A DNA stretch of 14,244 nt from positions 1 to 14,244 of the forward strand of contig JAGLQE010000146.1 of NCBI GenBank assembly GCA_023137005.1. The letters run 5' to 3'. The position numbers and the translations under genes were made by a program. Positions 5,028 to 7,507 of the stretch are shown here, piece after piece. The stretch is from Thermoplasmata archaeon. GTDB taxonomy: Archaea; Thermoplasmatota; Thermoplasmata; SG8-5; JAGLSY01. Each line of letters opens with the position of its first letter. Position 1 is the stretch's first letter. Below the pieces are notes generated by a model. It worked only from the letters and a program-made list of their open reading frames with translations. It was not told the DNA's origin and ran no database searches.

Positions 5028-5145
5028 TCCCGACTCCCGGATTTGAACCGGGGATCTGCTGATATCGGCTGAGACCGGATTCGCGGTCAGCAAATCCGGG
5101 ATCCTACTACAGTCAGCCGCTCTAGCCAGTCTAAGCTAAGTCGGG
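5028..5145 (-). tRNA. tRNA-Tyr(GTA) with 43-nt intron
   Basis: Read on the minus strand. The acceptor stem CCCGACT pairs with AGTCGGG; the C1-G72 pair and A73 are archaeal/eukaryal tRNA-Tyr identity elements. The D stem is GCTT/GAGC with GG in the loop, the anticodon stem GCTGA/TCAGC, the variable loop AGATC, and the T arm CCCGG-TTCAAAT-CCGGG. The anticodon loop is C-T-GTA-G-A, interrupted between positions 37 and 38 by an intron at 5064-5106. The intron contains a strong CCGGATT/AATCCGG stem and would be excised by the archaeal splicing endonuclease at a bulge-helix-bulge-like structure. The mature length is 75 nt. CCA is not encoded. Confidence 0.95.
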
Positions 5146-6204: not shown

Positions 6205-6666
6205 ATGGTGGAAAAAATGGACGATATCAAGATAATCAAAATGGAAGAGATGAGGGTGGCTAGCTTTCACGCAATGGGGGAATCTCCGGAGATTATGGCC
6301 ATAGAAAAAATGCAGGCATGGGCACGACCCAAAGGCCTGGTAGGTGGTGGTAAATACAATGTATTTGGGTTTGACAATCCTCTCCCGGAACCTGGAAAGA
6401 AGGAATACGGTTATGAGGTCTGGGTGGTGTTGGATGATGAGAGCATCCCGGTCGATGATGTGGAGGTCAAACAGATCCCGGCCACGAAGTATGCCAAGCT
6501 GTATTCCGAGGGCTTTGATAATATTGGATCCAACTGGCGCAAACTCGCTGATTGGGTGAAGAATAGCGGTCATGAACATGCTTGTGGTCAGTGCCTTGAA
6601 GGTCATTATTCTGGATCATCGGAAACTGGAGATTTCGCACTCGATCTGTTAATACCTATCGAATGA
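6205..6666 (+). CDS. GyrI-like / AraC effector-binding-domain protein
   Basis: A 153-aa stand-alone small-molecule-binding domain. The pattern fits the GyrI-like fold: a first strand with a surface His (RVASFHAMGESPE), a helix, then YNVFGFDNP, YGYEVWVVLDD (69-78), VEVKQIPATKYAKLYSEG, a long helix NWRKLADWVKNS, and a last strand DFALDLLIPIE. No DNA-binding domain is fused, so it is not itself an AraC-type regulator. Such proteins bind hydrophobic or cationic ligands, and some hydrolyse reactive compounds. A CGQC pair (127-130) followed by LEGHY is notable and could be redox or metal active. The start is set by the TATA spacing; ATG 6217 is an alternative. Confidence 0.82.
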   Translation: MVEKMDDIKIIKMEEMRVASFHAMGESPEIMAIEKMQAWARPKGLVGGGKYNVFGFDNPLPEPGKKEYGYEVWVVLDDESIPVDDVEVKQIPATKYAKLYSEGFDNIGSNWRKLADWVKNSGHEHACGQCLEGHYSGSSETGDFALDLLIPIE

Positions 6667-6689
6667 TGGATAAGCATTGACAATAAGAT

Positions 6690-6696
6690 AAAAAAA
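6690..6696 (-). terminator. T7 tract on the minus strand at the far end of the hairpin array
   Basis: A7 on the plus strand reads as TTTTTTT on the minus strand. It would end a transcript that starts at the 7142-7507 gene and runs through the hairpin array, so the array could be its long 3' region. No comparable T tract follows the array on the plus strand. Confidence 0.35.
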
Positions 6697-6700
6697 TAGA

Positions 6701-7006
6701 GGGTGGGGAAGGCTGATTGCCTTCCCCGTGAGGAGAGGTTAATTCGTATTTACGATCTCTTCAAAAAGAAGAGGTTGGAGAATGGTTGGTCGCCATTCTC
6801 CGAGAGAGGAGGTTAATTCGTATGTCTCTGAGAGGGGTTGGTGGAGCCGTGGGCGGGCTCCACCGCGGGTATGGCTGGTCGCCATCCCTGAAGGAATGCG
6901 GTCAGCATTCCTTAGATTGAGGAGGTTTGATTCTGATCCCTTCATAAAGAAAGGGTGGGGAAGGCGGTTGGCCTTCCCCGTGAGGAGAGGTTAATAGTGA
7001 TATGAT
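6701..7006 (+). repeat. Tandem array of hairpins and conserved purine-rich boxes
   Basis: Four diverged units. Perfect or near-perfect hairpins lie at 6705-6727, 6777-6801, 6840-6864, 6867-6888, 6891-6913 and 6957-6979, with 8-10 bp stems. Five have 5-nt loops; the one at 6840-6864 has 7. Stem sequences differ but pairing is kept. Four are followed by a purine-rich box: GAGGAGAGGTTAATTCGTAT at 6730-6749, GAGAGGAGGTTAATTCGTAT at 6804-6823, a variant from 6919, and a variant from 6982. Bases 6701-6743 and 6953-6995 are a 43-nt direct repeat with a few loop differences. The boxes can themselves close into stems: GAGGAGA 6730-6736 with TCTCTTC 6756-6762, and GAGGAGG 6919-6925 with TCCCTTC 6937-6943 (one mismatch). 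No convincing protein reads through. Function is unknown. Confidence 0.75.
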
Positions 7007-7078
7007 CCAAGTATGACATTCCAGAGTTTGACCTAGCCAAACTCTGGATTATCCATCTATGCCGAATGTCAAACTTGG
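7007..7078 (-). repeat. Nested long-hairpin element, copy 2 (inverted relative to copy 1)
   Basis: The outer stem 7007-7021 pairs with 7064-7078 at 14 of 15 positions. The inner stem CAGAGTTTG (7022-7030) pairs with CAAACTCTG (7038-7046) around a 7-nt loop. It aligns along its whole length with the reverse complement of 35-106, including 20 identical bases (7059-7078). The spacer between outer and inner stems is the same length (12 nt), and the inner stem differs in sequence but still pairs. Confidence 0.7.
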
Positions 7079-7088
7079 CCTGTGAAGA

Positions 7089-7133
7089 TCAAATGTGGGT
7101 AGCCAGGCATCCCGGCCAGCCACCCACATTCGA
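7089..7133. repeat. Third long hairpin, next to copy 2
   Basis: TCAAATGTGGGT (7089-7100) pairs with ACCCACATTCGA (7122-7133) at 11 of 12 positions around a GC-rich 21-nt middle that can form a small GGC/GCC stem. It lies nine bases from the stop of the minus-strand gene at 7142, so it would fall just past that gene's stop in its 3' UTR. Its sequence is not clearly homologous to the 72-nt element. Confidence 0.6.
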
Positions 7134-7141
7134 CATGGGGT

Positions 7142-7507
7142 CTAAGCGTATGCGTGCTCGACCTCATCAACATACGTCAGTATGTCGTATTCCGCGGTGA
7201 GGAAGTCTCCCTCAACGCCTATGTTATTGTCTATCATCACATCATCGAAGTAATGGATCAATCCAACCATTTCCGAGATATTCTCGCCACGGTTGTAGAA
7301 TTCGAAAACAATGTCCCTCATGTCCTGAACATTGTGTGATCTCAACCAGTTCTCTGTACCCGCGTCTATATTCCTAAGTGCTCGCGCCTTGCCTTTTGTT
7401 ACGTTTTGTGTTTCCATTTTGCATCCCTTCTGACGTTTTACGCCGTTTTGTCTGACATCTGTCAGCTCCACATCAACATTAACATCAGGGTATATAAAGG
7501 TTTTCAT
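7142..7507 (-). CDS. Small protein of unknown function
   Basis: Up to 121 aa. I do not recognise it. Two starts are possible. ATG 7507 has a TATA box (TATAAAAATAG, 7534-7545 region) about 33 bases upstream, giving a near-leaderless mRNA. ATG 7417 (METQNVTKGKARAL, 91 aa) has a weak AAGG-type SD and a strong CCTTTATATACC TATA block at about 7488-7500, which would then be a promoter rather than codons. The shared part has a basic N-terminal stretch, then helical segments (NWLRSHNVQDMRDIVFEFYN, SEMVGLIHYFDDVMIDNN) and an acidic end (YVDEVEHAYA). No cysteine or membrane motif occurs in that part. It points away from the TPR gene, and the two share a 217-nt regulatory region. The hairpin array lies beyond its 3' end. 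Confidence 0.6.
   Translation of the reverse strand: MKTFIYPDVNVDVELTDVRQNGVKRQKGCKMETQNVTKGKARALRNIDAGTENWLRSHNVQDMRDIVFEFYNRGENISEMVGLIHYFDDVMIDNNIGVEGDFLTAEYDILTYVDEVEHAYA
7449..7465. promoter_or_regulatory. TGTCTGACA palindrome, inner site
   Basis: TGTCTGACA (7449-7457) is a palindrome with a single central base. It is followed at once by CTGTCAG (7459-7465), so the region also forms CTGACA/TGTCAG on the minus strand. It lies inside the 5' part of the minus-strand ORF, or in its leader if ATG 7417 is the start. The same 9-mer recurs at 7577-7585 and, with one change, at 7600-7608. Confidence 0.4.

Follow-up and report, generated by a model that had tools for sequence, protein, structure and literature searches.

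The hairpin array at 6701-7006 of the window, the whole 14,244-bp stretch of DNA that was analysed (contig 53, part of a 2.0-Mb draft genome that is 79% complete), is best read as four tandem 3'-UTR/terminator units that would act at the RNA level, on the minus strand, behind a gene for a 91-aa protein. We put the probability of this reading, which is built on comparative sequence analysis, at roughly two-thirds. Each boxed unit features a Y box, AUCACnAUUAACCUCYCC on the minus strand (consensus with an optional A, AUCACnAUUA(A)CCUCYCC), followed by a hairpin; three of the four then have a U-rich tract. The most conserved part is the box, not the hairpin, and several families have the box without a hairpin. 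The element hints that a few genes are under a so far unrecognised control at the level of RNA. Among the three origins offered in the initial annotation of this DNA, the novel multi-hairpin RNA is the one supported by the results below.

Features of the array

The window has perfect stems of at least 9 bp, closing loops of 3-9 nt, at 8 sites, 6 of which fall within 6705-7048, and five 9-bp perfect stems lie inside 6701..7006 (Table 1). The initial annotation described six hairpins of 8-10 bp; five have 9-bp perfect stems, and the sixth (6867-6888) is weaker, with a bulged 5+3 bp stem. Of the five 5-nt loops described there, three are found outright among the five 9-bp hairpins, and five are reached only by counting a terminal G-U pair in the hairpin at 6777-6801 and by including the weak sixth hairpin. 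The four boxes are present, one of them in degenerate form (6916-6938), and the direct repeat, first given as 43 nt, was recovered as 50 nt at 90% identity (6694-6743 and 6946-6995). The units are spaced by 74 and 178 nt, and they are diverged and unequal in length and content. As had been claimed, the array lies between convergent genes, a GyrI-like gene on the plus strand (6205-6666) and a minus-strand gene ending at 7142.

Table 1. Coordinates of the array, the upstream gene and the GGGATGC motifs, in minus-strand order
Feature	Coordinates	Strand	Evidence
GGGATGC (X motif), begins 10 nt before the 91-aa start codon	7421..7427	-	GGGATG at -9/-10 in 12/13 homologues
Conserved 91-aa gene, whose transcript would enter the array	7142..7417	-	homologue in 13/13 genomes of the order
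Further GGGATGC copy, largely within the loop of hairpin 7089-7133, downstream of the 91-aa gene and ahead of the array	7107..7113	-	sequence, fold
11-bp hairpin ahead of unit 1, downstream of the 91-aa gene	7020..7048	-	stem search
Y box, unit 1 (first in minus-strand sense), TATCACTATTAACCTCTCCTCAC	6980..7002	-	CM and PWM match (also in both training sets); conserved across units and genomes
Hairpin, unit 1, 9-bp stem, 5-nt loop	6957..6979	-	stem search, repeat, unit alignment
U-rich tract behind unit 1, ACCCTTTCTTTAT, longest T run 3	6944..6956	-	T-run test
Degenerate Y box, unit 2, GATCAGAATCAAACCTCCTCAAT	6916..6938	-	sequence; weak CM match, E 0.76
Hairpin, unit 2, 9-bp stem, T tract absent	6891..6913	-	stem search, T-run test
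Weaker hairpin, 5+3 bp with bulge, boxless	6867..6888	-	sequence; pairing in predicted folds
9-bp hairpin without own box or T tract	6840..6864	-	stem search, T-run test
Y box, unit 3, CATACGAATTAACCTCCTCTCTC	6802..6824	-	CM/PWM match
Hairpin, unit 3, 9 bp	6777..6801	-	stem search, unit alignment
AACCTCTTCTTTTTGAAGAG, T5 tract then GAAGAG, self-folding possible	6757..6776	-	T-run test
Y box, unit 4, AATACGAATTAACCTCTCCTCAC	6728..6750	-	CM/PWM match
Hairpin, unit 4, 9 bp, 5-nt loop	6705..6727	-	stem search, repeat, unit alignment
U-rich tract, unit 4, ACCCTCTATTTTTTTATCTT, T run 7	6685..6704	-	T-run test

Tandem Repeats Finder called no array at the hairpin region, and regular near-identical repeats with unique spacers, as in a CRISPR, were not found in the array with its 74- and 178-nt spacing and diverged units. 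The initial view that the array resembles no CRISPR, REP, riboswitch or tRNA-like element agrees with the Rfam search proposed alongside it, in which every family scored below gathering in the window apart from a tRNA elsewhere in it. Ten loci of the element, searched at E values up to 5, gave four matches, all far below gathering, and hence no family match to the element. The tRNA match spans 118 nt at 5028-5145 on the minus strand; it was missed by ARAGORN and probably carries an intron. A literature search by title returned no paper on the element, and the Rfam name 'ftsZ-DE' was dropped as a candidate with nothing in that search and no Rfam match on the ten loci. Small proteins encoded on the plus strand were also considered and rejected: unit 3 features an SD-like GGAGG and an ATG, which by eye are not kept in the other units read.

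T tracts often precede GAGGAG/GAAGAG or GGGAGG (L119, L106, L044 and window 6757-6776; by eye). These purine motifs can pair, as judged by eye, with a CU tract before the T tract to form an alternative hairpin that holds the U tract in its loop.

Strand and U-tracts

The box was first described as purine-rich, which is true of the plus strand only. The evidence says that the minus strand is the likely functional reading; the order of box, hairpin and T tract and the sense of the gene favour it over the plus-strand reading of the initial annotation. A T run of at least 5 within the 20 nt after the hairpin, in sense, is featured by all nine family units tested outside the window and by 2 of the 6 window hairpins, and by none of the 15 hairpins on the antisense side (the G001 C199 unit was left out of this test). 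The window unit at 6957-6979 has TTTCTTT as its only T tract, and behind three of the six window hairpins the T runs do not exceed a single T. A terminator scan of the window gave 9 sites compared with 12.8 expected, with a sole array site at 6979-6957. Intrinsic terminators are recognised by a GC-rich hairpin with a T run directly behind it; by the T-run test 2 of the 6 window hairpins would be candidates, and the single array site of the scan is a different one.

It is doubtful that the units are ordinary strong terminators between convergent genes, with the box a passenger duplicated together with the hairpin. Similar hairpins do close other genes (boxless GGGGAAGGC...GCCTTCCCC / GGGAAGGC-type hairpins with a T tract were seen by eye after stop codons at 7 other sites in G000 and G001), and near-identical hairpins are found at unlinked loci in one genome. 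The box, however, is the most conserved part, is retained without the hairpin and, across 11 genera, follows one and the same ribbon-helix-helix (RHH) gene, a likely regulator, and the lack of antisense T runs of 5 or more in all 15 hairpins also argues against this explanation.

Folding and selection on stem pairing

The stem pairing is under selection. The region 6667-7141 is predicted to fold much more stably than 100 shuffles of it on either strand, and most strongly on the minus strand (z = -7.7 for the plus strand and z = -11.0 for the minus strand). A covariance model (CM) was built from five units and then rebuilt from nine; the search with such a model, as the initial annotation had recommended, revealed copies in related genomes whose pairing covaries. 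In the alignment of nine homologous units, 97.2% of the cells are paired compared with 74.9% in shuffles, and compensatory changes on both sides are found at 7 of the 9 stem pairs. An alignment of 24 distinct rows from several families gave 97.0% against 67.9% in shuffles, with compensatory changes at 8 of 9 pairs. Both alignments were fitted to the model and therefore favour structure; pairing falls to about 65% or less in both when the partner is slid by 1-3 columns. The claim that preserved pairing reflects selection on structure is thus borne out by compensatory changes among homologous units. The Y box is nearly invariant within the genus while the stem sequences vary.

A site that works at the DNA level, either for the binding of a regulator or for recombination, is barely credible. 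Its association with division and RHH genes and its palindromes would suit such a site, but the stems vary and still pair, which a sequence-specific DNA-binding protein does not need, the orientation to the gene is fixed, and the T tract is on one strand only.

Copies in the family of the window

The genome of the window features a second copy on contig 297. In G001, a genome of the same genus, two units occupy the locus syntenic to the window and units are also present in the region syntenic to contig 297. The nine-unit CM was searched against 8 genomes and gave 12 matches at E <=1.2e-4, which fall in three family genomes that are 74-83% complete: G000 has 5, G001 has 4 and G002 has 3, at 3, 3 and 2 loci, respectively. 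Box loci were added later at the RHH gene in G001 and at the RHH and CxxC genes in G002, and each family genome has three or four loci, in sense behind genes. The box follows, in sense, the tubulin-like paralogue and the gene for a small CxxC protein in all three family genomes and the 91-aa gene in two of the three. The tubulin-like/FtsX intergenic position is kept in all three. The box 3' of ftsZ is present in G002 and absent from the G000 orthologue, and a close ftsZ orthologue was not found in G001. Across 185 kb of G002, a stretch that includes the two known loci, three sites of at least 18 bits were found; they follow ftsZ, the tubulin-like paralogue and the gene for the CxxC protein.

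A non-autonomous mobile array, as proposed in the initial annotation, or a REP/MITE-like dispersed repeat is highly improbable. Homogenised hairpins at unlinked loci and a variable unit number would be expected of either, but the loci are few per genome, in gene sense and at positions that are partly orthologous across genera, and this also speaks against the recombination-site array that had been proposed as the third option. The exact 14-nt box, moreover, is present in both genomes of genus g1; among 98 other genomes searched it occurs in 3, where it stands without a hairpin. Many dispersed, non-orthologous copies in both orientations, as in REP or MITE elements, were not found in the three family genomes at their 74-83% completeness. 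A search with the box alone, allowing one mismatch, gave 12 sites in 13 genomes of the order, of which one is a G002 unit and 11 are hairpinless and, by eye, mostly coding-looking; these sites were set down to chance because a reversed control pattern gives about an equal number.

Other stems are dispersed in these genomes. Near-identical AGGGAAGGC...GCCTTCCCT hairpins occur at L035, L037, L038, L076 and L022; those of G001 have T tracts and follow genes whose C-terminal ends are alike, and the same hairpin recurs in G012. A second dispersed stem element, GCCATATGC...GCATACGGC, was seen by eye in intergenic regions of the order (L043 6622-6700, the 3' flank of the 91-aa gene in L050, and L007 at 1433 and 1803, with variants in L051-L053).

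The 91-aa gene and the X motif

The minus-strand gene before the array was called as a 121-aa ORF (7142-7507), which most likely is really a 91-aa gene from 7417; the re-assigned start is supported by the conserved region from TATA to ATG. The upstream region 7417-7507 features a TATA-like box at 7490-7498, the palindrome CTGACATCTGTCAG at 7452-7465 and the GGGATGC listed in Table 1. The 91-aa protein has no Pfam family at its cut-off, and structure prediction gave a low-confidence helical model with a mean pLDDT of 66. Most of its 62 homologues are nameless and some are hypothetical, two carry JGI names unsuited to a protein of 93 aa, and an organism is named for four, all of them Thermoplasmata, Thermoplasmatota or Euryarchaeota MAGs. 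The box stands behind this gene only in the genus of the window (2 of 13 genomes), and scores in the remaining 11 are <=8.3. Flanks as long as 600 nt can score high by chance: among 1,300 shuffles of them, 4 reach 13.8, the best 18.1.

A TATA-like box accompanies the GGGATG of the 91-aa homologues, most of which also have a CTGACA..TGTC palindrome nearby. The motif GGGATG[CG] was also found in the leaders of ftsZ (L145-L174), in sense in 27 of 30 and in antisense in 0 of 30, over 320 nt per leader (194 in one) with the ftsZ starts set by alignment. About 0.06 per strand is expected from the G035 background of 142 sites per 400 kb on both strands. Five paralogue leaders gave 3 sense and 2 antisense sites, and further copies of GGATG lie in the 3' UTRs of RHH genes. 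The X motif supports a putative shared control scheme.

Distribution across the class Thermoplasmata

The nine-unit CM was run over 400 genomes of the class, scoring 13 candidates per genome, and gave matches in at least 30 genomes at E <=0.05; the gene set is incomplete because of this scope. The genes upstream of 28 contexts from the class and family CM scans (excluding L019, L020 and three second hits that had no locus) were identified by eye as RHH in 11, ftsZ in 5, CxxC in 2, tubulin-like in 1 and winged-helix in 1; the remaining 8 comprise four behind no identified gene (f23, L108/L110-L112) and four more that are chance-like. These contexts were picked by score, and the association was therefore retested from the gene side with a PWM trained on 16 boxes from f1, f3, f23 and f24 and none from f16 or f19.

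A search with an RHH fragment gave 16 loci in 15 of 18 genomes. The Y box follows all 14 of the best RHH orthologues (E <=6.7e-19; 11 genera, 8 families) at 58-148 nt past the stop. One of these 14 boxes (G073) was among the PWM training boxes, which also included f23 boxes that follow this RHH gene elsewhere. The boxes in these flanks score 13.8-27.3, the antisense strand <=10.7, and none of 1,600 flank shuffles reaches 13.8. The box is absent after two weaker RHH paralogues. A T tract directly follows the box in 10 of 14, and G026, G073, G092 and G110 feature a hairpin and a T tract. The RHH 3' UTRs (L275-L288) are about 90-180 nt long, and those of f1 and f3 have hairpins and several copies of GGATG ahead of the Y box; the RHH 3' UTR may be a structured RNA in its own right.

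Ninety 3' flanks of FtsZ-family genes were examined, in which 30 of the 31 top matches were taken as ftsZ and the 60 others came from lower among the matches listed. At least 15 bits was reached by 13 of the 30 best ftsZ loci compared with 1 of the 60 other FtsZ-family genes among the matches listed, with the G002 ftsZ box included in the PWM training set; 1,800 shuffles gave <=14.0 and the antisense strand <=13.1. The other 17 ftsZ loci score below 15 bits, and some of these show degenerate C/U boxes and T tracts by eye. In 400 kb of G035, three sites reach 18 bits (0 in shuffled DNA), two behind ftsZ and one behind the RHH gene, and 8 sites reach 15 bits compared with 1 in shuffled DNA, some of them behind no named gene. 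The box and T tract stand without an intervening hairpin at RHH genes of f1, f3, f16 and f19 and at ftsZ genes of f19 and f16, and these ftsZ genes feature two or three tandem boxes.

It is unlikely that the units are tandem small RNAs, in which the Y box would be an exposed anti-SD-like seed (CCUCC) acting in trans and the hairpin and U tract a terminator. The box contains CCUCC or CCUCUCC and does lie, seed-like and in tandem, right before a hairpin and U tract, but for 10 of 10 genes tried the box pairs with the gene's own start region no better than shuffles do (0.09-0.98 of 200 shuffles are as good), a promoter between units was not recognised by eye, and the position of the box past the stop in 14 of 14 RHH genes is more like that of a 3' UTR.

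Proposed mechanism

Under the preferred reading, a 3'-UTR/terminator element on the minus strand, the Y box would mark a set of genes shortly past their stop codons: ftsZ, the tubulin/FtsZ-like paralogue, the RHH regulator, the CxxC protein gene and the 91-aa gene. The box and U-tract are probably the older part and the hairpin a later addition, because several families have the box and T tract with no hairpin between them. The family of the window mostly has units in which a hairpin like those after other genes separates the box from the U-tract, and the window would be an amplification of the element into tandem hairpin-bearing copies. We infer that transcripts terminate at the units, with RNA polymerase stopping at the U-tracts, and that a trans factor co-regulates the gene set. 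The Y box upstream of the U-tract would be the sequence-specific site for this factor, on the nascent or finished 3' end, and the factor would set the termination efficiency or the mRNA stability of the marked genes. Tandem copies would tighten the 3' end or multiply the binding sites.

A more tentative extension, which we consider possible at best, is a cell-division RNA regulon in which the mRNAs of ftsZ, the FtsZ-like paralogue, the RHH regulator and two small proteins carry the Y box, and most also GGGAUGC in the 5' leader (the RHH gene has it in its 3' UTR), and are read by dedicated RNA-binding proteins. The window would then show the 3' element amplified at the level of the genus. A single base separates the Y-box core GAUUACCUCC from the 3' end of the 16S rRNA, GAUCACCUCC, and a candidate reader would be a KH protein whose usual target is that 16S end; ribosome assembly would then be coupled to division. 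The box behind the RHH regulator (14 of 14, eight families) and behind many ftsZ genes offers a testable handle on post-transcriptional control of division, and archaeal terminators may carry information on gene sets beyond the U-tract. To our knowledge, the control of the level of FtsZ and of its regulators in archaea is poorly understood, and archaea have few conserved 3'-UTR elements that go with a defined set of genes.

Comparison with known systems

The closest archaeal parallel to the U-tracts is found in the U-tracts at which archaeal RNA polymerase terminates and which aCPSF1 binds through its KH domains; archaeal terminators are described as mostly hairpinless, and a hairpin as not strictly required (PMC8716108). 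Those terminators share with the element a U-rich tract at the 3' end of the gene and an expected reader that is a KH-domain termination factor. They differ in that the passages on the U-tract motif mention no box like the Y box, and here the box marks few genes. Bacterial intrinsic (Rho-independent) terminators resemble the units in the GC-rich hairpin of 9 bp and in the T tract behind it where there is one, whereas the element described here has an archaeal host, an upstream box of about 20 nt and tandem copies, and lacks the hairpin in other families.

The cuckoo/CcsR anti-SD small RNAs of alphaproteobacteria are considered to act in trans and carry their motif in hairpin loops. They share with the array a C/U-rich anti-SD-like motif, tandem copies and a terminator hairpin; here, in contrast, the motif lies outside the hairpin in the 3' flank of a gene, and pairing with the own gene is unsupported. 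In eukaryotes, C-rich 3'-UTR stability elements are bound by KH proteins. These elements are likewise pyrimidine- or C-rich 3'-UTR sites in a small set of mRNAs, but they belong to a different domain of life, and a protein that reads the Y box is putative.

In haloarchaea CdrS, an RHH putative transcription factor, regulates ftsZ2, and the words 'untranslated' and 'motif' are absent from the main text of the paper (PMC7439475). The CdrS-ftsZ2 system resembles the gene set described here in that an RHH protein and FtsZ would be joined in one control circuit, a likeness at the level of the RHH class.
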